A stretch of DNA of 64,000 nt from a virus. The notes beneath the pieces were generated by a model that saw only the letters and a program-made list of their open reading frames with translations, did not search any database and had not been told where the DNA came from. Below, piece by piece: positions 936 to 57,788 of this stretch (position 1 is the first letter of the stretch; each line of letters begins with the position of its first letter). A program made the position numbers and the translations under genes. Where the stretch lies: the IMG/VR virus record IMGVR_UViG_3300036792_000267, positions 87,378-151,377 of that record; one strand, 5' to 3'.

Positions 936-3900
936 ATGCGGGACGCGGCGCAGGCTAAGGCCGCGCTGCAGGGGATGGGCGATGCGGCCAAGGCGGAGAC
1001 CGCGGCCGAGGTGGCGGGCGCGACCCAGGCCGCCGCCGCGCGCGGCAAGGGCATCACGTCCATCCAGCAGGAGACGCAGGCCCTTAACCAGCTCGCCAAC
1101 GCCGCCAAGCAGACCAACGTCCAGCTGCTCTACGGCGGCCGGAATGACATGACCCAGCACCTGAGCGACCTGGCTCAGGAGCTGAACTACACCACCTTGC
1201 TCAACCGGCAGAAGTGGCTCGGCTTCTCCTCCGTCCAGCAGGCCATGTCGTACCGCCAGCAGATGTATAACCTGGCGCTGCTGGAGAACAAAGCGCACTT
1301 CGCCGGCTACCTGACCGCGGACCAGTACCTGGGCTTCCTGCAGCGCGAGACCGCCCAGACCGCGGCGCTGTCGGCCGCCATCCGCGACCGCAGCGCGGCC
1401 ATCGGCGCCGAGACCCAGATGCTGCTCGCGCACGCCAACGCGCTGCAGGGCACCCACGCGACGGCAGGCAGCCTGGGCGAGGGCCTGAGCACGGTCAACG
1501 CCTACAACGTGGCGCTGGTCGGGCTGCCGGACACGGTGGTCACCAAGGCCGTCCTTGATGACAGCCAGGCGATGTCGCAGCTGGCTGCCTACCGCGCGGC
1601 GCTGACCTCGCTTCCCAACGCGGAGACCACCGACATCACCTCGGTTGCCACCCGGCTGGGCGGCGTCCCGCTGACGGGCGCGCGCCAGGCGGTGCCGGTC
1701 AGCGTCCGCCCCGAGATCGACTACGCCGCGATCAACAAGATGCTGTCCCAGGCGGTCGCCGGGGCGCACCCGGAGGCGCTGCGCGCGCCGCTGGCCATCA
1801 CCGGGTCGGGAGCGGCGGATTCCGCGCTGTCGGCCACGGCGGATTCCGCGCTGTCGGCCACGGCGGACGACGCCGGCGCGCTGTCGGCGTCCATGTCCGA
1901 GCTGAGCGACAAGGCGGCCATTTCCGCCGAGGCAATCAGCAAGTTCCAGGACTCCCTCGCGCTGGCCGCGGTCGACGCCCGCGCGCTGGAGCAGGGACTC
2001 GGGCGCCTGTCGGCCGCCGAGCAGCTGCTGTCTGAGGTTAACGCCCAGTTCGTGCCGCAGAAAGGCCGCAAGAAGGCGGCGGCTGCCGACCCGGCGCAGA
2101 ACCTCGCTGACCTGTACGGGCTGCAGGACGTCGCCGGCGCGCTGCGCGAGGGCGCGATCTCCGACGCGCCGCGCGGCTACCCGCTGTCCGCCCCGGGCAT
2201 GAAGATCATCCCGCCGACGCAGGCGGGAGAAGAAGACCTGTGGTCGGGGCTGTCCAAGTACATGCAGGGCGGCAAGGCCGCGGGGACTGCCACCGAGAAG
2301 GTTGCCGTCGAGGGCGGCCAGGAGGCCGAGGCGACCCTCGACAAGATCGCCGTCCAGATGGAGTGGCTGGACCATGAGGATGCCAAGCCGAAGCTAGAGC
2401 TGGAAGGCGGCCAGGAGGCGCTAGACGACGCCTACCACCTGGACGGCGTACTCGTCGGCCTGACTTACGAGCGCGCGGAGCCGGAAGTCGCCCTGCAAGG
2501 CGGAGCCGAGGCGCTGGGAGAAGTCACCGCCCTGGACGAGGGGCTGCACGAGATCCCGCACGAGACTGACACCGTCCTGGTGGTCGAGTCCTCCGGGGCC
2601 TCCAGCGAGGTCCGCGATTACAGCCGCGACATTGAGGACATCGAGCGTGAGGTGGGCACTCGCGCCGACTTCGAGGACACCGAGGCGGAGAGCGGGCTGT
2701 CGCGCTGGCTGACCGCCCTGGCTGCGGCGGTCCAGCACAAGTACGACTTCTACGCCAGCTTCAACGACGACGCGGCCAAGGCCGAGCTGGCCGGGTGGAT
2801 CAGCGAGCTTGAGGCGGCACGCGCCGAGGAGAACCGCATCACCGCCGGCATGGGCGGTGCCTCCGGTGGCGGTGGCGGCGGAGGGCCGCCTGTTCCCCCT
2901 GCTGCCGCCGGCGACGCGCCCAACCCGGATGACCGGGCGATGTGGGAGGCCGTCGCCGCCGAGATGGCCAAGGTAGACGCCCTCTTCAAGAACACCGGCC
3001 GTGACGCCGCTGCCGCCGGGGCCGCCGCGTCCAAGGCCGGCCGGGACGGCGCGCAGGCGGTCACCTCGATGGTGCTGCCGCTGACCAACGGCGCGCGCGG
3101 CTGGTTCGGCCTGCTCACCCAGGTCAACCTGTTCGGCGGCCTGCTGCCCGGCATCCTGGGCCACACCACGGCCCTGCACTTCGTCCTTGACGCGATCATC
3201 GAGACGATCGCCATCCTGCTGCCGGCCATCGTCACCATGGCAGCCGGGCTGACCGCGTTCGGCATCGCTGGCTACGACGCCGGCAAGGCGGTCTACGAGC
3301 GCCTGACGGCGATTCACACCGCGGCCGACGCCACCGGCCAGTCCATCCCGCCGCTGACCGGGAACCTGGAGAAGCTGCACGACACGGTGCGCCCGCAGGT
3401 CTGGCAGTTGTATGGCGACGCCATCACCGTCGCGGGGGCGAAGTCCGGGCTCTTCAACCAGCTGGCCATCCAGACCGGGAACGTGGTCGACCGGCTGGCC
3501 GCGCGGCTGACGGTGGACCTGGTGCAGGGTGGCCAGGGGCTGAAGACGTTCCTGTCGGTCGGCGCGGAGAACCTGGCCAAGCTCGGCACCATCTTCGACA
3601 ACCTCGGCAAGGCCCTGATGGCGTTCATCAAGGTCACCGAGGACACCCACATTGACCAGATTTTCCTGGCCATCTTCGTGGCGCTGTCCCAGTTCCTGGT
3701 GCTCATCACCAAGCTGCCCACCCCGTTGCTCGCCGCCGTGGTCGCGCTGCACGCGTTCTGGCTGTGGGGCGGCCTGCTGGCCACCGTGGTCCTGCAGATG
3801 CTCAACCCGCTGCGCTCGCTGGCACTGGCGCTGGGCGCGGTCGACGCCGCCTCAGTGAACGGCGGCCTGGCCAGCCTGACCAAGGACGCGTCGGCCTGGC

Positions 3901-6900
3901 AGCGGCTGAAGGCCGGCCTGACCGACATCGCAGCCGGGTTCGGCGCACTGCCGGCCCGGTTCAGCCTGAGCAGCAAGGCGGCCGGCGAAGCTGAAGTCGC
4001 CTTCGATGACATGGGCAACGCGCTGGTGGCTACTGACGCGGAGATGGCGGCCGGCGCCACGTCCGGCGGCGGCCTGCTCTCGGTGCTCGGGCGGCTCGTC
4101 CCGGCCGGCGGCGCTGCCGCCGGGGCTGCCGCGCTGCTGGGCAGCGCGCTGGCCGCCGCCTACGTCTACCTGGCGCTGCTGCCCGACGCGACCCAGAAGT
4201 GGATCAACTCCCTCAACCAGACGCTGGCTAAGACCACCGCGTTCACTGTGGTCTCCGCGACGGTCGGTGACCTGGCGGCGGTCACCCAGCAACTGGCAAA
4301 GGCCCAGGCCGACGGGACAGGCAACGCCTCTGAGCTGGCCGGGGCGCAGCGCGGCCTGTCCAGTGACCTGTCCAACGAGCTGGGGCACGTCGGGGCGGTG
4401 TCCAAGGCTTACGGCACCGACTTCCTGGGCGCGCTGGAGCTGCTGAACGCGGCCGGGGTGAAGACCTCCGACATCTTCTCCGCCCAGGGCAAGGCCTGGG
4501 AGGCGGACCTGCAGCAGGTCCAGGGCCTGGTGCAGGGCTACAAGGCGATGGGCCAGGGGCTGTCCGCGCTGCAGCAGGACGTCTCGGTCCAGCTGGTGAC
4601 CACCAGCGACCAGGTAACCGCCATGGGCAACCTGAACAAGGCCTGGGACGCCTGGACCAAGACCGTCGGCGGGGCCCCCAGCACGTTCATCGCCCTGGCC
4701 CAGGGCTTCGCCACGTTCAACACGGATGCCGCGGCGGCCGGGGCCGCTATGACCGGGCTGAACGCGCCCAGCCTCACCCTGCAGAGCGACTTCCAGTCCA
4801 ACTACAACAACGTCCAGGCGTTTTTCGACGCGTTCCGCAACGACCAGGCGCTCACCGGGGCGGGCGACTTCACCAAGTTCGTCAAGGACGCGGTAGCCAG
4901 CCTCATCCCGATGGCGGGTGGCTCCAAGGAGGCCGCCGCCCAGATCTCCGCCCTCGCCCAGGAGGCCGGCGGGCCGGCCACGACCAACATCAAGACGCTG
5001 CAGCAGTGGGTCGGCAACATCAAGGACCCGCTGCTGCAGATGTATAAGGCCAGCAATGACGCAGCGATCGGGGCCTCAAGCCTGAGCCAGGACGCGGCCC
5101 GGCTGACCTCCACCCTGCAGCAGCAGCTCAACCCGGCCATGGCATCGGCCATCTTCAACGCCCACGGCGGCCAGGCCGTCTTCAACGCGTTCGCCGACGC
5201 CCTGGCCAAGGGCGGGCCGAGCAGCGGCGCGACCATCACCGCGGCGCACAACGTGGCCCGCGAGCTGCTGGCGGTGTCCGGCTCCAGCGCTAACGCCAAG
5301 GCGAACTTCGTCGGGTTCACCGAGGCGATGGGGCTGAGCGCCAAGCAGGCTAACGCCCTGTGGGCCCAGGTCACCAAGATCCCGGCCAACGCCAGGACCA
5401 CCTACACCCTGGACGCGGAGCAGGCGCTGCAGAAGGCGGAAAAGCTCTCCGCGGAGCTGCCGCACCTGACCGGCCAGAAGAAGCTCCAGGTTGAGGCAGA
5501 GGTCAAGGACCTGCAGTTGCAGGCCATGAACGACAAGCTCAAGGCCGCCAAGGGGGACGTCAGCGACCTCAACAACGCGAGCCTGAGCAAGCTGCGCGGC
5601 CAGCTCGCGTCCACCGCCGGCTCTGCGGCCGACCTCGTCAAGCCCGGCGAAGTCGACACCATCCTCAAGTCGTTCAAGGACGGCACGTTCTACGAGGTCA
5701 CGTTCCTGGCGTGGATTCCGCAGGTCCAGCGCGCCCTGAACGTGGTGAACCACGATGTCGGGCAGTTTTTCGCTCATGACATCCCGGTGGCGTTCGGCGT
5801 CACCAGCCACGCCTTCGAGGCGGCGTGGGACGGGATGGTCAACTGGTTCACCCAGTCGGTGCCGCACGGGCTGGAGACGGCCTGGGGCACCGTGTCGTCG
5901 TTCTTCGACAAGGCGTTCACCCACGACATCCCCGCGGCGTGGGACTCCGCCTGGGGCACCCTGGTCTCCCCGGTCACTCACGCGTTCGATGACGTGAAAA
6001 CCTGGGTCTCCTCCAATTTCGACACCTGGTGGAAGACCCATGGCCAGGGCGTCATGGCCATCTGGGACACCTTGTGGGGGGAGATCTCCGGGGCGGCCAT
6101 CAAGGCGTTCGACCTGGTAGAGACCGGGGCCACCGGCTTCCGGCACGTCCTCACCGCCATCTTCACCAGCGGCCCCGTCAAGCAGGTCTGGTCCGGGTTC
6201 TCCGGTGCAGCCGCCGACACCTGGCATTTCATCGAGTCCCTGGCCACTGCCGCCTGGCAGATGGCGGTCGCCGGCGCGCGGGCCACCTGGAACGAGGTCG
6301 CCGCGCTAGGCAAGGCGGCCTGGGACCTGGTGGTCGCGGCGGCCAGGGCTGCCTGGGACATCATCTGGGCCCTGATCGGCGCCGAGGTCAAGTCCGCGGC
6401 AGCCATCGCGACCGCGTCGTTCAAGGTGCTGTGGGACCAGGTGGTCGCGCTGGCCAAGGTCGGCTGGGACACCATCGTCCTGATCATCAACGAGGTCATT
6501 GACCTCTTCACCGGGCACTGGGCCACGGCGTGGAAGGACCTGCAGGCGTACGGCATCCAGGTGTGGAACGCCGTCAAGACAGCCGGCATCCAGACGTGGA
6601 ACGCGATCTCGACTGCGGCGACCCAGGTGTGGAACGCGATCTGGAACGCCGTCAAGACGGCTGCCACCCAGACCTGGAACGCGTTCAAGACCGGCGGCCA
6701 GCAGGCGTGGTCCGCGATCTGGCACTCGCTGCAGGCCACGTTCATCAACCCGCTGGCGGCTTTCTTCACCTCCACCGTGCCCAAGTGGTGGGACAGCTTC
6801 GCGAACTTCGCGTCCTCTACCTGGACCAAGGTGTGGTCCGGCTTCCAGAAGAACGTCCTGCAGCCGATCGAGGGCTTCTTCACCTCGACACTGCCCAACG

Positions 6901-9212
6901 CCATGTGGAACTCCCTCAAGGGCGGGATTGACCACGTAATCTCCGGGCTGAACACGGTCATCGGCTGGATCAACGCGGTGACTTCGGTCGTGGGCGTGCA
7001 CATCTCCCCGATCTCGATGCTCGCGGCCGGCGGCGTGGCCCCGCAGCGGATGGCGCACGGCAGCGTGCCGGGGACGGGCGACGAGGACGGCACGCACATC
7101 ATCGCGATGGGCGGGGAGTACATCCTGCGCAAGCCCGCCAGGATGGCCCTGCAGGCCGCCTACGGGCCCCAGTTCCTCGATGAGCTGAACCAGGCGGACT
7201 CCTGGCTGGGCTCGGGCTCGCGCGGCAGCACGGCCACCCAGCAGCGCCGTCCGGGCCGGTACGCGTCCGGTGGCATCCCGGTCATCTCCGACATCGGCAA
7301 CTGGCTGGGCGACGCGGGCAGCGCCGTCGCCGGGGCCGCCTCCTCCGTCTGGCACGGCGTCGCCGACGCGGCCGGCGAGGTCGCCAAGTTCGGGGAGAAG
7401 GCCGTCTTCGACGCCATGTGGTCGGTCTCCGGCGCCCCGGCGGAGAAGGCGATGGAGGCGCTGGGCACGCCCGGTGACATGGGCGCGGCGTGGCTGCAGA
7501 CCATCCACAACGGGGTGGAGAACTACGTCACCGCCCAGACCGCCAAGGCGCAGGCGTCCAGCAAGTCGACCGGCTCCATCACCGGCGCCGGGGTGTCCAA
7601 CTCCTCGGCCTACGCGGCCCTGCAGTCGGCGGCGGCCAAGAAGGGCTGGACCGGGGCCCAGTGGGCCGCGCTCAACGACGTGGAGATGGCCGAGGCAGGC
7701 TACAGCCTCACCGCCACCAACCCGAGCAGCGGCGCGTACGGCATGGCCCAGTTTATTAACGGACCGGGAGAGTACGCACAGTACGGCGGTAATTCGACAA
7801 CAGCAGCGGGACAAGCGGTAGCGATGGTAAATTACATCGCACAAAGATACGGAAATCCAGAGAGCGCATGGGCTCATGAGGTCGCGTACCACTGGTATGC
7901 CGCAGGCGGGCCGGTCATCGACGCCATCCGCGCCGTCACCGGCAACGTCAACGAGCAGGAGGCGATGGCCCTCGGCTCGTGGCTGCTGACCAGGATGAAC
8001 CCGGCGGGTACCGCGCCGCACTACAGCGAGTCCGGGGCCTGGCTGATTAACACCGCCAAGAACAAGGCCGTCACCCAGACGCAGGCGCTCAACGCCAACA
8101 ACGCTGCCCGGTACCTCGCGCCGTACTACGCCAAGGCCATCCTCGGGTCCACCCCGGCGTCGTGGAAGGCGACCCCGGCGACCGCCGCACTCAAGGCCGA
8201 CGCCGCCGTGGCCGCCGCTACCGGCACGCACTGGTCCACCCCGTCGGCCGCCACCCTCGCAGCCGGGTGGAACGCCGTGTCGACCGACCTGGGCCCGGCC
8301 GTCAAGCAGGTCACAGCGGCGGCCAGCACCAGTGACACCGCCGCCTACCAGGCTGCTGCCGCGCAGCTGTACCCCGACTGGGAGGGCGCGCTCAACCCCT
8401 GGAAGACGCTGAGCGCGCTCCACCAGCCCAAGGGCGTATCGGCCCCGGACTGGGCGTCGTGGCTGGCCCAGCGCGCCGTCATCGCCAACCGGGTGAGCGT
8501 GGCCGGCAGCTACGTCGCGCCGCTGTTCGATGACCTGAAAGTCAACCCGCAGGAGCTGACCGCGGCCATGTGGTCGCACACCGACTCCAGCGTGCGGCGC
8601 TGGCAGGCGGCGATGGACGTGGCCGGCTGGGCCAAGTCCAAGGAGCCGGCGCTCTACAGCCCGATCCAGTCCAACCTGGCCAAGCTGGAGCCCGAGATCG
8701 TCAAGGCGGGCAACGCGTGGATCAACGTCTGGGGCACCACCCATACCCCGCCGCCGGGCGGAGGAGGCGGGTCCTCCGGCGGCGGAGGCGGAGGCACGAT
8801 CGGCCCCGGCAGCGGCCCTGGTGGCAGCGCCGGGTCTACGGTCATCGACCTCGCCCCGCTCATCACTGGCGGCCCCAAGGTGGCCAACGCCGGGGATTAC
8901 GGCTTCAACATTGCCGCGGGCGGCGGTGTCCCCGGCAATGTCGCGGCGATGTTCTCCGGCGGCATGGCCATGGCGGCTGGCGGGGTGGTGCCCAACCTGT
9001 TCGTGCCGGGCCTGTCGGCCAACCTTTCGCGGCAGCTCACCGCCGCCACCTCCGGCCAGTTGCCGCGCACCCTGTCGGATGCGGCCGGCAACCGGGTGGG
9101 CCTGCAGGTCGAGAACCTGACGATTTCCAATCCTGTTGCCGAAAAGCCGTCTGACTCCATCACCAGAGCCAGCAACAGGCTGGCATTCCTTGGCGGGAGG
9201 GGGATGGTCTGA
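936..9212 (+). CDS. Tape measure protein with embedded lytic transglycosylase
   Basis: At 2758 residues this is the longest gene in the window, sitting where the tape measure belongs in a siphovirus tail module. It should set tail length and pass through the tail tube during DNA injection. It shows Ala-rich helical stretches, hydrophobic segments near residues 720-775, 925-955 and 1050-1085, and a long Trp-rich region (about 1630-1990) with repeated W-N-A units. Near residues 2232-2332 lies an SLT-type lysozyme domain: a glutamate pair (Glu2250/Glu2253), NPSSGAYGMAQF, then RYGNPESAWAHE and WYAAGG. This would cut peptidoglycan during entry. A Gly-rich linker (about 2605-2633) precedes the C-terminus. 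No good ribosome site precedes the ATG at 936, and the true N-terminus may be spliced from 134. The next gene overlaps by one base. Confidence 0.93.
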   Translation: MRDAAQAKAALQGMGDAAKAETAAEVAGATQAAAARGKGITSIQQETQALNQLANAAKQTNVQLLYGGRNDMTQHLSDLAQELNYTTLLNRQKWLGFSSVQQAMSYRQQMYNLALLENKAHFAGYLTADQYLGFLQRETAQTAALSAAIRDRSAAIGAETQMLLAHANALQGTHATAGSLGEGLSTVNAYNVALVGLPDTVVTKAVLDDSQAMSQLAAYRAALTSLPNAETTDITSVATRLGGVPLTGARQAVPVSVRPEIDYAAINKMLSQAVAGAHPEALRAPLAITGSGAADSALSATADSALSATADDAGALSASMSELSDKAAISAEAISKFQDSLALAAVDARALEQGLGRLSAAEQLLSEVNAQFVPQKGRKKAAAADPAQNLADLYGLQDVAGALREGAISDAPRGYPLSAPGMKIIPPTQAGEEDLWSGLSKYMQGGKAAGTATEKVAVEGGQEAEATLDKIAVQMEWLDHEDAKPKLELEGGQEALDDAYHLDGVLVGLTYERAEPEVALQGGAEALGEVTALDEGLHEIPHETDTVLVVESSGASSEVRDYSRDIEDIEREVGTRADFEDTEAESGLSRWLTALAAAVQHKYDFYASFNDDAAKAELAGWISELEAARAEENRITAGMGGASGGGGGGGPPVPPAAAGDAPNPDDRAMWEAVAAEMAKVDALFKNTGRDAAAAGAAASKAGRDGAQAVTSMVLPLTNGARGWFGLLTQVNLFGGLLPGILGHTTALHFVLDAIIETIAILLPAIVTMAAGLTAFGIAGYDAGKAVYERLTAIHTAADATGQSIPPLTGNLEKLHDTVRPQVWQLYGDAITVAGAKSGLFNQLAIQTGNVVDRLAARLTVDLVQGGQGLKTFLSVGAENLAKLGTIFDNLGKALMAFIKVTEDTHIDQIFLAIFVALSQFLVLITKLPTPLLAAVVALHAFWLWGGLLATVVLQMLNPLRSLALALGAVDAASVNGGLASLTKDASAWQRLKAGLTDIAAGFGALPARFSLSSKAAGEAEVAFDDMGNALVATDAEMAAGATSGGGLLSVLGRLVPAGGAAAGAAALLGSALAAAYVYLALLPDATQKWINSLNQTLAKTTAFTVVSATVGDLAAVTQQLAKAQADGTGNASELAGAQRGLSSDLSNELGHVGAVSKAYGTDFLGALELLNAAGVKTSDIFSAQGKAWEADLQQVQGLVQGYKAMGQGLSALQQDVSVQLVTTSDQVTAMGNLNKAWDAWTKTVGGAPSTFIALAQGFATFNTDAAAAGAAMTGLNAPSLTLQSDFQSNYNNVQAFFDAFRNDQALTGAGDFTKFVKDAVASLIPMAGGSKEAAAQISALAQEAGGPATTNIKTLQQWVGNIKDPLLQMYKASNDAAIGASSLSQDAARLTSTLQQQLNPAMASAIFNAHGGQAVFNAFADALAKGGPSSGATITAAHNVARELLAVSGSSANAKANFVGFTEAMGLSAKQANALWAQVTKIPANARTTYTLDAEQALQKAEKLSAELPHLTGQKKLQVEAEVKDLQLQAMNDKLKAAKGDVSDLNNASLSKLRGQLASTAGSAADLVKPGEVDTILKSFKDGTFYEVTFLAWIPQVQRALNVVNHDVGQFFAHDIPVAFGVTSHAFEAAWDGMVNWFTQSVPHGLETAWGTVSSFFDKAFTHDIPAAWDSAWGTLVSPVTHAFDDVKTWVSSNFDTWWKTHGQGVMAIWDTLWGEISGAAIKAFDLVETGATGFRHVLTAIFTSGPVKQVWSGFSGAAADTWHFIESLATAAWQMAVAGARATWNEVAALGKAAWDLVVAAARAAWDIIWALIGAEVKSAAAIATASFKVLWDQVVALAKVGWDTIVLIINEVIDLFTGHWATAWKDLQAYGIQVWNAVKTAGIQTWNAISTAATQVWNAIWNAVKTAATQTWNAFKTGGQQAWSAIWHSLQATFINPLAAFFTSTVPKWWDSFANFASSTWTKVWSGFQKNVLQPIEGFFTSTLPNAMWNSLKGGIDHVISGLNTVIGWINAVTSVVGVHISPISMLAAGGVAPQRMAHGSVPGTGDEDGTHIIAMGGEYILRKPARMALQAAYGPQFLDELNQADSWLGSGSRGSTATQQRRPGRYASGGIPVISDIGNWLGDAGSAVAGAASSVWHGVADAAGEVAKFGEKAVFDAMWSVSGAPAEKAMEALGTPGDMGAAWLQTIHNGVENYVTAQTAKAQASSKSTGSITGAGVSNSSAYAALQSAAAKKGWTGAQWAALNDVEMAEAGYSLTATNPSSGAYGMAQFINGPGEYAQYGGNSTTAAGQAVAMVNYIAQRYGNPESAWAHEVAYHWYAAGGPVIDAIRAVTGNVNEQEAMALGSWLLTRMNPAGTAPHYSESGAWLINTAKNKAVTQTQALNANNAARYLAPYYAKAILGSTPASWKATPATAALKADAAVAAATGTHWSTPSAATLAAGWNAVSTDLGPAVKQVTAAASTSDTAAYQAAAAQLYPDWEGALNPWKTLSALHQPKGVSAPDWASWLAQRAVIANRVSVAGSYVAPLFDDLKVNPQELTAAMWSHTDSSVRRWQAAMDVAGWAKSKEPALYSPIQSNLAKLEPEIVKAGNAWINVWGTTHTPPPGGGGGSSGGGGGGTIGPGSGPGGSAGSTVIDLAPLITGGPKVANAGDYGFNIAAGGGVPGNVAAMFSGGMAMAAGGVVPNLFVPGLSANLSRQLTAATSGQLPRTLSDAAGNRVGLQVENLTISNPVAEKPSDSITRASNRLAFLGGRGMV

Positions 9213-30231: not shown

Positions 30232-30232
30232 C

Positions 30233-39473: not shown

Positions 39474-40247
39474 ATGCCTGATGACCCGTTCGCCGCGCTG
39501 TACGCCGAGCACCTGCCGGCCGCGCGGCGCCTGGCCCTGGCCCTGGTGCCCGCCGACGCGGCCGAGGACATCGTGGCGGAGGCGTTCACGCGGGTGCTGG
39601 CGCGGCAGCTGGCGGGCGGCGGGCCTGACGGCGCGTTCCGCCCCTACCTGCTGGCTGCGGTGCGCAACCTGGCGCGAGACTGGCTGGCCGAGCGGCGCCG
39701 CGTCGCCCCCTCGCCGATCGACCCTCGCGCGCACCGGGTGCCAGGCGCCGGCGAGCTGGTGACCGCGGCCGAGGAGGCGGCGATGACCCGCCGGGCGTTC
39801 GAGTCCCTGCCCGGCCGCTGGCGCGCGGTGCTGTGGCAGACCGAGGTGGAGGGGCGCACGCCGGGCGAGCTGGCGCAGGTCTCCGGCATGACCCCCAACG
39901 CCGTGGCGCAGCTGGCGGCGCGGGCGCGCATCGGCCTGGCGCTGGCGTGGCACCGCGAGCGGGGCACGCAGGAGCGCATCACCGGGCCGGCCCCTGCGCT
40001 GGTTCGGCTGGCGGAGCGGAAATACCGGAAGACGCTTGACACGAGTCAAGCCGATAGCTTAGACTGTGACTACAGCAAGCGGAACGGACCAGAGGGCAGG
40101 CACCCGATGTACGCAGGCGAGTACTACGCAGACGGCGACAACTACTACCCCGGCTCCGATGACGACGAGCTGAGCCCGTTCGACCAGGCGATGAGCCAGC
40201 TGGCCGTGCAGGCCGCGCGCATCGCGCAGTTCGAGCAGGGCAACTAG
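39474..40247 (+). CDS. ECF-type sigma factor, reading on into the next gene
   Basis: Residues about 5-75 match sigma region 2 (FAALYAEHLPAARRLAL, AEDIVAEAFTRVL, YLLAAVRNLARDWLAERRR). Residues about 100-160 match region 4 (SLPGRWRAVLWQTEVEG, LAQVSGMTPNAVAQLAARAR). It would direct RNA polymerase to a subset of promoters. The sigma part should end near residue 185, but no stop is present: the frame runs through promoter P10, the conserved block and the whole next gene, giving 257 residues. Whether the long form is made or a stop has been lost is unknown. Confidence 0.8.
   Translation: MPDDPFAALYAEHLPAARRLALALVPADAAEDIVAEAFTRVLARQLAGGGPDGAFRPYLLAAVRNLARDWLAERRRVAPSPIDPRAHRVPGAGELVTAAEEAAMTRRAFESLPGRWRAVLWQTEVEGRTPGELAQVSGMTPNAVAQLAARARIGLALAWHRERGTQERITGPAPALVRLAERKYRKTLDTSQADSLDCDYSKRNGPEGRHPMYAGEYYADGDNYYPGSDDDELSPFDQAMSQLAVQAARIAQFEQGN
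40036..40065 (+). promoter_or_regulatory. Promoter P10 (inside the sigma frame)
   Basis: TTGACA-N18-TAGACT; palindrome CTTGACACGAGTCAAG (one mismatch). Drives the gene at 40108 while also being translated as DTSQ in the sigma frame. Confidence 0.8.
40108..40247 (+). CDS. Small acidic protein nested in the sigma frame
   Basis: The 46-residue product starts at ATG after GAGGGCAGGCACCCG and is in the same frame as the upstream sigma factor. Acidic, Tyr-rich first half (MYAGEYYADGDNYYPGSDDD) and a helix at the end (QAMSQLAVQAARIAQFEQG). The conserved promoter and start block argue it is made on its own. It might bind or modulate the sigma factor; that is inference. Confidence 0.65.
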
Positions 40248-40995
40248 GCCCCGGCGGGCCGCCGACAACCTAAGCCCAAGCCAGTACCTGCCTGCGGGCG
40301 GGGTGCGGACATTGGCGGTGAGGCGGCCCGGCGGACAACTCCACAGAGACTTGGGGGCAACGGGACCCTGCAAGGCCAACGCCCTGCGTTGTGTCAAGAT
40401 CGCAACTTGGCGTCCTCGCGGGCTGGGGTCGGAAACCGATGGCCGTTGTCCCCTAAAACTCCCCGGGCTGTTGTATCGAGTACCTGGCGAACGCGTGAGC
40501 GACACAGGCAGGATTAAGTTCCAGCCTTTGGCAACACCGCTACGGACCAGCGAAACACGCGGCAGCCCGGGGGTTAGGCGGAGGGTAACCCCTGGCGGTT
40601 CTGGGTTACCTGAGTGCACCCTCCGATGAACCGAAGTGGGGCCGGGAGGCTCCAGTCGGCAGGCTGTCCTCCCGGCGCCCGCGCTAAAACTCCATAGACG
40701 AGGGGTCTCGTTCGAGGCGAGGCGGTACCCAGTCCGCCTTTACCTGCACTGGACGGCTTTCCGGCTCCGGCTGGCGGCAACCTGGCGGCCCTGATGCGCT
40801 TACAGCCTGTGCCCGTGGTCATTCCGCGGTCGCGGTACTGCGGCGCGGAAAGCTGCCAGCTCAATCCATCGTGGCTGACACGTAACGCAGGGCTTGGGGT
40901 TTGTGACCCGACAGTGAGCACTGCTCCCCCTCGCGAACGCCCTAGCGGATGTCTCGGTTGCCTGCCCTGCCCCGCTAGGGCGTTCGCATTTTTAT
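40248..40995 (+). ncRNA. Candidate large structured non-coding RNA, about 740 nt
   Basis: No frame here has plausible codon bias or a start site. Stems include CGGGCCGCC/GGCGGCCCG (40255-40263 with 40322-40330), GCCGGGAGG/CCTCCCGGC (40641-40649 with 40668-40676), a tRNA T-arm-like hairpin CTCG-TTCGAGG-CGAG (about 40707-40721) and TTCCGCG/CGCGGAA (40822-40850). Two hairpins exclude each other: GGGGTTA/TAACCCC (40570-40592) versus GGTAACCC/GGGTTACC (40584-40610). The motif TAAAACTCC occurs twice. It ends in a 16-bp terminator. Size, phage setting and structure resemble the large ornate RNA classes (GOLLD, ROOL), but no class can be assigned by eye. Confidence 0.55.
40933..40993 (+). terminator. 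Strong terminator of the large RNA region
   Basis: Perfect 16-bp stem GCGAACGCCCTAGCGG with its complement at 40972-40987, a 23-nt loop, then ATTTTT. Promoter P11 follows at once. Confidence 0.92.
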
Positions 40996-41056: not shown

Positions 41057-41470
41057 ATGGAAATTGACATCACCGCGCTGCTGGCGGTCTCCGACGACGA
41101 GAGCCCGGACCTGACCGGGCTGCTGGAGGCCGTCGAGGCCGCGAGCAGCCAGGACCAGACTGCGTGGCTGACAGACAAGGGGCAGCGCATCGCGGCCATC
41201 GTGCCGGTCGACGTCGCCGAGTACCACGATGAGATGACTCGCCGCGTGCTGACCACGCCGGCCGGTCCCCGGGTGAAGTTCCCTGAGGTCACGGTGCAGC
41301 TGAGCGGAGGGGACGGCAGTACGGGCGTCATCATGGCCAAGGTTGCCGACGCGATGGGCGCCGCCGGCGTCGACAGGCGGGACATCCGCAGCTTCCGCGA
41401 GGGCATCCTCGCCTGCGAGAGCTACGAGGCCGTTCTCGCGCTGGCTCAGCGCACGGTCAACGTCGAGTAG
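41057..41470 (+). CDS. Phd/YefM-like protein
   Basis: The 137-residue product starts after GAAGGGCAGGCAC. Residues about 28-60 resemble the antitoxin core of Phd/YefM (AWLTDKGQRIAAIVPVDVAE). The second half (VIMAKVADAMGAAGVDRRDI) has no clear relative, and no adjacent toxin is evident. It may be a DNA-binding regulator rather than an antitoxin. Confidence 0.5.
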   Translation: MEIDITALLAVSDDESPDLTGLLEAVEAASSQDQTAWLTDKGQRIAAIVPVDVAEYHDEMTRRVLTTPAGPRVKFPEVTVQLSGGDGSTGVIMAKVADAMGAAGVDRRDIRSFREGILACESYEAVLALAQRTVNVE

Positions 41471-56657: not shown

Positions 56658-57788
56658 ATGAGCAAGGAATCGATGGAATGGCTCCGCTCCAACATCCGCG
56701 TAGGTTTCACGGGGTCGGACGGGCCGGCGTGGTGGGCGGCATCGGGCGAGTACATGACGGACGGCTCCCACTTTGACGGGCCCGTCCCGACGAAAGAGGT
56801 CGAGCGGCTGTTGTCGGTCGAGTTCGCGGAGGGAACCGTATTCAGCACGTACACCGTGGTCGACCACACTGAGGAGTGCAAGGCGGCCGACTGGGACCCC
56901 GCGGACGGCGACCCCTTCGAGTGCCCGTCGCACCGCGAGTCAACGCAGGACAAGACCCGCAAGACCATCATCACCCCGGACAACGGGGACATTCTCGGAA
57001 TCTTCAAGCTCGGTTACCAGGTGCACGACTACAAGAGGTGGACCGCAGACCAGATCGCGGCCATTCTCGACACCTCGCGCGGCGAGCTTGGCACCAAGTC
57101 AGTCGGACTGCTGAAGAACCGCGGTGTCGCGTTCATGCAAGCGCAGCTGACCGGCTCCGGCCTTGAGGTGGGCGGGTTCGAGTTCACCCCCTACATTCTC
57201 GCCGCGACCAGCGTTGACGGTTCGCTGTCGAGCACGTACGCAACCGGCGTGACCGCGGCGGTATGCGATAACACGCTCGCTGACGCGCTGCTCAACGCGG
57301 TTACCAGGCTCAAGGTGAAGCACTCGCGCAACAGCGCCGGCAAGCTCGCGGACGTCCGCGACAAGCTAGGGCTTGTCTACCAGGCCGGCGACAACTTCGC
57401 GCAGGCTGCGGCCGACCTGCAAAAGGTCGACGTGACGCCGGCTGACTTCCGCGCGCTGCTCGATGAAGTGGCCGCCGTTCCCGCTCCTGACCCCAAGTCG
57501 AGCACGGGCGGGGCCAAGTATACCAACGCGGTTAAGCTGCGCGAGACTTACGAAGCCATGTGGAACCATGACGCCAAGGTCAAGCCGTGGGCAGGCACCG
57601 CGTTCGGGTGGGTCCAGCTGTGCAACACCTACAACACGTGGAAGCGCAACGTGTCCGGCGCCGACGGCGGCCGGATGGAGCGCACCTACCTCAACATGGT
57701 GACCGGCGTCACTGCCAAGGAGGACGCGAACGCGCTTGACACCCTGGCCAAGGTGATGGGCGAGAGGCTTACCGCAGCACTCGCCTAG
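56658..57788 (+). CDS. DUF932 (phage/plasmid-like) protein
   Basis: The 376-residue product matches the DUF932 layout: a first region with VEFAEGTVFSTYTVVD, then GDILGIFKLGYQVHDYKRW, VGGFEFTPYILAATSVDGSL, AVCDNTLADALL and a C-terminal FGWVQLCNTYNTWKRN. DUF932 proteins occur widely in phages and plasmids, often beside recombination or replication genes. Here it follows the RepA-like ATPase and has its own, differently controlled promoter. Confidence 0.8.
   Translation: MSKESMEWLRSNIRVGFTGSDGPAWWAASGEYMTDGSHFDGPVPTKEVERLLSVEFAEGTVFSTYTVVDHTEECKAADWDPADGDPFECPSHRESTQDKTRKTIITPDNGDILGIFKLGYQVHDYKRWTADQIAAILDTSRGELGTKSVGLLKNRGVAFMQAQLTGSGLEVGGFEFTPYILAATSVDGSLSSTYATGVTAAVCDNTLADALLNAVTRLKVKHSRNSAGKLADVRDKLGLVYQAGDNFAQAAADLQKVDVTPADFRALLDEVAAVPAPDPKSSTGGAKYTNAVKLRETYEAMWNHDAKVKPWAGTAFGWVQLCNTYNTWKRNVSGADGGRMERTYLNMVTGVTAKEDANALDTLAKVMGERLTAALA

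Follow-up and report, generated by a model that had tools for sequence, protein, structure and literature searches.

The locus and its transcription unit

Between a sigma-factor gene and a gene at position 41057 in a 64,000-nucleotide stretch of viral DNA (hereafter the window; bases 87378–151377 of a 151,377-base virus record, GC 69%) lies a region, 40248–40995, whose codon-position GC of 0.67/0.66/0.63 gives no coding signal, as against 0.70/0.46/0.91 in the next gene. This flat profile bears out the first-pass annotation, which had seen no convincing gene here and had proposed a large, ornate noncoding RNA instead. In the following, G000 denotes the window's own phage and G001–G009 the related phage records.

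In its right half, the window carries an early region made up of short plus-strand genes, with a repeated promoter, CTTGACnnnAGTCAAG. Across this region (window positions 30232–62287), about 26 plus-strand promoters carry the palindrome over the −35 element and are accompanied by the leader (r)GGCAACCGAGcGAAGGGCAGGCACnnATG. The early leader common to these genes ends in GAAGGGCAGGCACnnATG, and the shared leader/ribosome-binding element, rGGCAACCGAGcGAAGGGCAGGCACnnATG, differs from a canonical Shine–Dalgarno sequence and recalls the idea of Start-Associated Sequences.

The sequence upstream of the RNA contains an early-type promoter on the plus strand (40036–40065), composed of TTGACA (40036–40041), the palindrome CTTGACACGAGTCAAG and the −10 hexamer TAGACT (40060–40065), and a promoter of this type is also found upstream of the RNA in G001, G002, G005, G007 and G009. 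The transcription setting as first described stands with regard to this promoter but not with regard to the start of the unit, which is predicted at ~40072, i.e. 5′ of 40248, and which in G000 has a short ORF of 46 amino acids (40107–40247, plus strand) ahead of the RNA. This ORF is preceded by the early RBS motif GGGCAGGCAC at 40094–40103 and has a strong codon bias (GC by codon position 0.66/0.36/0.94); at the equivalent place in the relatives, e.g. in G001, no such ORF is present. At its 3′ end, the RNA runs into an intrinsic terminator (~40933–40995, plus strand) with a stem of 15–16 bp (40934–40948 with 40972–40986) and a T-run at 40989–40993. Four different sequences of this stem occur among five phages, with pairing retained.

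A DUF2637 match among the window proteins (a family that we take to be actinobacterial), together with protein relatives in phages of Mycobacterium, Streptomyces and Microbacterium, suggests that the virus is actinophage-like. The nearest named terminase is that of Microbacterium phage Magritte (47% identity), and by such relationships the hosts of this high-GC phage clade are probably Actinobacteria. ARAGORN called 36 tRNA genes in the phage record (L008 16197–19857 and L009 316–2595) and no tmRNA in the scanned parts of it. Elsewhere in the window, an ORF at 134–853 matches Recombination endonuclease VII (Pfam PF02945) and lies directly 5′ of the long ORF 936–9212, which is probably the tape measure gene; the endonuclease ORF may belong to an intron or to another kind of insertion in this gene.

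Homologues and class membership

A first protein query (41057–41470) found no relatives, a protein query at 56658 yielded a single one, G001, and the terminase query yielded nine. Homologues of the RNA are present in five other members of the clade, all uncultivated phages (G001, G002, G005, G007 and G009; six with G000), always with the sigma-factor gene on one side and the next early gene on the other. Their approximate lengths range from 370 nt in G007 through 545 nt in G001, 565 nt in G002, 750 nt in G000 and 825 nt in G005 to 1370 nt in G009. The covariance model R1, representing the conserved core, matches 6 of the 10 clade records with E-values of 1e-14 to 1e-17; the RNA was not found in G003, G004 and G008, which are short fragments, nor in G006 (124 kb), which may end before the locus. 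The G009 homologue is the most diverged, spanning 1.4 kb (L064 105–1486) with no convincing gene and three copies of the linker motif described below.

Searches further afield were negative: blastn against phages and plasmids gave no match to the RNA and only two trivial partial matches to the G009 version, and the core pattern did not occur in bacterial genomes. Eleven extra loci with a relaxed half-core pattern in viral contigs were rejected as chance on the basis of model R1 and their context. R1 was also run on another 50 records related by their terminase and on three named phages, with two weak matches and no accepted homologue; the better of the two, in G012 (E 6.4e-5), is taken as chance because no early promoter lies nearby and the sequence is coding-like. 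Among the records searched, the RNA family is restricted to one clade of high-GC phages.

The first-pass annotation had suggested either a member of the GOLLD or ROOL RNAs or a new class, and had proposed covariance models for known large RNAs and alignment of relatives as checks. No Rfam family was found in the whole window at the gathering threshold, and in the window and four relatives nothing scored above threshold, whether gathering or relaxed. Neither the GOLLD nor the ROOL model matched the region at E ≤ 10; GOLLD (RF02032) had no match in seven related records at E ≤ 1, where the control genomes were also without GOLLD, and ROOL (RF03087) had none in six records at E ≤ 1, where no positive control was matched. 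With both models lacking a match, membership in either family is not supported. The tRNA island, at ~56–63 kb of the 151-kb record, is also distant from the RNA, which lies at 127.6 kb. It is the alternative of a new class that has gained ground, given a large, ornate and conserved phage RNA that no Rfam family matches, and we consider it almost certain that this is a real RNA whose family lies outside Rfam. Neither a group I intron nor RNase P had a model match, and both were dropped as candidates. The same applies to tmRNA, suggested by a T-arm-like loop: ARAGORN called none in the window or at the G001 locus, and there was no Rfam match.

A separate observation concerns the 5′ part of the G001 RNA (L011 2915–3000), for which the tRNA islands of G002 and G003 contain a tRNA-like counterpart with 85% identity. 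In G002, this stretch (L066 220–303, reversed) sits between two tRNA-Pro genes. Its T-arm comes before its D-arm, the order found in circularly permuted tRNAs, and it is not called by ARAGORN.

A modular and pseudoknotted fold

The folding energy of 40248–40995 is −378 kcal/mol, as against −340 ± 8 kcal/mol for 20 dinucleotide shuffles (z −4.6), and the G001 homologue reaches z −6.2 against its shuffles. Since a single MAFFT alignment of the whole RNAs misaligned their shuffled domains, the domains, all on the plus strand, were aligned separately.

Near the 5′ end lies a sub-domain, CCUAAGCCCAAGC...GUGCGGACAUUGGCGG (40268–40318), whose blastn homologue (81% identity; G002:88216–88268) is located inside the core hairpin of G002, indicating that sub-domains move within the RNA. 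Domain borders carry a linker motif, ACUSnAnAG or close to it, in one to three copies per homologue; the copies in G000 are AACUCCACAGAG (40337–40348) and AACUCCAUAG (40688–40697). Domain X (40353–40453), closed by pairing of 40353–40363 with 40443–40453, is homologous in G005, with 11/11 closing pairs in both phages and two compensatory pairs.

The core domain (40462–40571) is closed by CCCGGGCUG (40462–40470) and CAGCCCGGG (40563–40571). This stem reads CCCGGGCCAGG/CCUGGCCCGGG in G002 and G005, UCCCAGGCCGG/CCGGCCUGGGA in G007 and CCACCCGGCC/GGCCGGGUGG in G009, and is fully paired in G000 and these four relatives despite the changed sequence; in G001 it is interrupted. It encloses the conserved core captured by R1, CCUGGCGAACGCGUGAG...CAACACCGCUACGGACCAG (40483–40551), which is laid out as CCUGGCGAACGCnUGAG, a variable hairpin and CAACACnGCUnCGGACCAG. 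Here 72/72 cells are paired, one pair occurring as GC/AU/CG and another as CG/AU/GC/UA. The core string GGCGAACGCGUGAG...CAACAC (40483–40537) resembles GGCGAACGGGUGAGUAACAC, a conserved string of 16S rRNA; this resemblance was set aside as not significant, a rough estimate placing it within chance.

Domain Z (40572–40683) consists of a hairpin (40583–40591/40603–40611), an outer helix (40579–40582/40622–40625) and a long hairpin (40636–40682). Of its cells, 96.9% are paired, and 12 pairs are changed on both sides, compared with 4.4 in shuffles and 1–4 after sliding the partners; column shuffling of the domain gave z −5.9. The domain also contains a pseudoknot (40596–40633) of six pairs between 40596–40601 and 40628–40633, which reads CGGUUC/GAACCG in G000, CGACCC/GGGUCG in G005 and CGCUCC/GGAGCG in G002; in three of the pairs both partners have changed. 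The 3′ domain (40699–40933) is closed by CGAGGGG (40699–40705) and CCCCUCG (40927–40933), a stem found in G000, G001 and G007 and shifted in G005; its T-arm-like hairpin (40706–40722) is identical in G001 and so gives no covariation test. Column shuffling yielded z-scores of −3.0 for domain X, −2.6 for the 5′ domain of G002 and G005 and −4.5 for the 3′ domain, in each case from two sequences, so that covariation in these domains is individually weaker.

The terminator, T-arm-like hairpin and long-range pairs seen at first pass are all present, and its claim of a strongly structured RNA is borne out by compensatory changes beyond chance in the helices of the relatives, including the pseudoknot. 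What comparison of the homologues shows is a pseudoknotted fold of modular build with a conserved terminator loop, and on this comparative footing the predicted fold is well supported.

The terminator loop and the early leaders

The loop of the terminator, CUCGGUUGCCUGCCCU (40953–40968, plus strand), is antisense to the shared early leader/ribosome-binding element. It is conserved as CUCGGUUGCCUGCC in 5/5 homologues with a terminator while the stem sequence varies, reading (C)UCGGUUGCCUGCC across the five, with UUGGUUGCCUGCC in G005 and CUCGGUAUGCCUGCC in G007. The G005 loop differs (UUGGUUGCCUGCCUUUC), and the leaders CAGGCAACCAA and AGGCAGGCA occur in that phage. In G009, the anti-leader terminator loop is absent and the leaders agree less with one another.

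Every 20-nt segment of each RNA was scanned against the leaders of the same phage, a set picked by a regular expression demanding the RBS motif. In 5/5 RNAs with a terminator, the loop was the peak of leader complementarity, with mean exact matches of 10.6, 10.0, 10.3, 10.0 and 8.1 nt (z 3.5–6.3). The highest of these values belongs to G000 (21 leaders, z 6.3), where 21/21 leaders match the loop over at least 8 nt and 20/21 over at least 10 nt. Complementarity of this extent was equalled by at most 0.13% of random early-region segments, and shuffled-loop controls gave p ≤ 0.0005 in four phages and ≤ 0.0025 in G007. The sense strand of the loop matched the leaders over no more than 2.8–3.5 nt (3.4 nt in G000). 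By duplex energy, swapped loops bind equally well or better than a phage's own loop in several phages, which makes co-evolution of loop and leaders in trans suggestive only. The earlier reading of this DNA missed the complementarity of the terminator loop, which yields a concrete proposal for function.

A candidate regulator of early mRNAs

Because the loop mirrors the start sequence of most early genes, the RNA probably controls all of them at once. With RNAIII of Staphylococcus aureus, the antisense RNAs of P1, P7, N15 and P4 and the Start-Associated Sequences of cluster K as precedents, we propose pairing in trans with most early mRNAs, and lean, with modest confidence, towards a trans regulatory RNA that acts on early leaders through its terminator loop. 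Such an RNA would be made from its early-type promoter and end at its own terminator, and its loop would base-pair in trans with the leader/ribosome-binding element that the early mRNAs share. As the stable RNA accumulates, pairing would block 30S loading on most early mRNAs, or destabilise them, all together, resulting in negative feedback or an early-to-late switch. The large folded body would confer stability and present the loop, in a mode like that of RNAIII or the P1 and P4 antisense RNAs with phage-wide targets. A hairpin loop complementary to the RBS of several mRNAs, as in RNAIII-type regulators, is found here as judged by complementarity alone; the pairing is thus a prediction, repression and a role in timing would build on it, and its effect may be repression or activation. 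A further version, in which the RNA would serve as a trans translation factor for the early leader/RBS, directing or withholding host ribosomes phage-wide and perhaps presenting many loop copies as an ordered RNA oligomer, strikes us as improbable; the likeness of the core to the 16S rRNA string GGCGAACGGGUGAGUAACAC would fit such contact with the ribosome.

The family could instead be a new giant ornate RNA class like GOLLD and ROOL, mainly structural in its role (e.g. as a homo-oligomeric RNA cage, or in binding ribosomes or tRNAs) and with leader complementarity as a secondary matter. This we regard as possible, if rather unlikely. Lengths of 370–1370 nt, an elaborate pseudoknotted fold, variable modular parts and a recurring linker motif all suit it, as do the tRNA-like 5′ part of the G001 RNA and the tRNAs that the GOLLD linker sometimes holds (PMC12286853). 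However, no Rfam model matches, the tRNA island is distant, and a structural role leaves unexplained why the loop is the strongest antisense site.

Other explanations accept the loop as the functional site and assign it a different partner. It could act in cis, pairing with the RBS-like element in the RNA's own 5′ leader and so closing the molecule or regulating the short ORF of G000. Own-leader matches of 10 nt in G000, 8 nt in G002 and 10 nt in G005 make such a role possible but weaker: they drop to 5–6 nt in G007 and G001, they do not exceed the mean trans match in any phage and the short ORF is confined to G000, leaving cis pairing doubtful. The loop also contains a GGU/GCC mini-hairpin in 5/5 RNAs and is 48–60% unpaired. 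Since it can form this internal hairpin, it could be conserved as a site for protein binding, e.g. by an antiterminator or by some RNA-binding protein of the phage, to which the leaders would be related in sequence for the same or another reason. Yet the leaders carry the complement of the loop and not the same sequence, as the short sense-strand matches attest, so that there are simpler readings than a protein site common to both, and this one earns little credence from us.

To our knowledge, there is no agreement on what large ornate phage RNAs do; the present family offers a testable function, as the start region of most early genes is mirrored in its conserved loop. If true, the anti-leader mechanism would constitute a regulon-wide RNA switch in phages, and it hints that a phage RNA may be what reads the repeated start-associated elements of actinophages.

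Comparison with known systems

The antisense RNAs of P1, P7, N15 and the satellite P4 are small. They are complementary to gene leader sequences (PMC7567579); unlike them, the RNA described here has more than 20 target leaders, and it has no Rfam match. In S. aureus, RNAIII is a large structured regulator whose hairpin loops pair with the RBS of several mRNAs (PMC2837412), from which the present RNA differs in being a phage gene, again without an Rfam match, whose predicted targets are the phage's own early leaders. The Start-Associated Sequences of cluster K mycobacteriophages are a conserved asymmetric element just 5′ of the starts of non-structural genes, for which 16S pairing alone was judged an insufficient explanation and a partner, whether RNA or protein, was left open (PMC3203893). 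They read GGGATAGGAGCCC, as against GAAGGGCAGGCAC here, and no partner RNA was named for the cluster K element. The terminator hairpin is weakly similar to ctRNA_pGA1 (RF00236), at 25.5 bits compared with a gathering score of 45, and unlike that RNA has no plasmid replication context.

ROOL is phage-borne, large and pseudoknotted (PMC12286853), as is this RNA, but its model has no match here. GOLLD is likewise phage-borne and large, with an ornate fold and a variable 5′ part; it forms a closed multimeric nanocage and often, though not in every case, lies close to a tRNA island. In contrast to GOLLD, the present RNA lacks a model match, lies far from the tRNA island and carries an anti-leader terminator loop. 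Neither GOLLD nor ROOL by the tests made, the RNA falls between two known kinds, the large ornate RNAs of phages and regulatory RNAs of the anti-RBS type.
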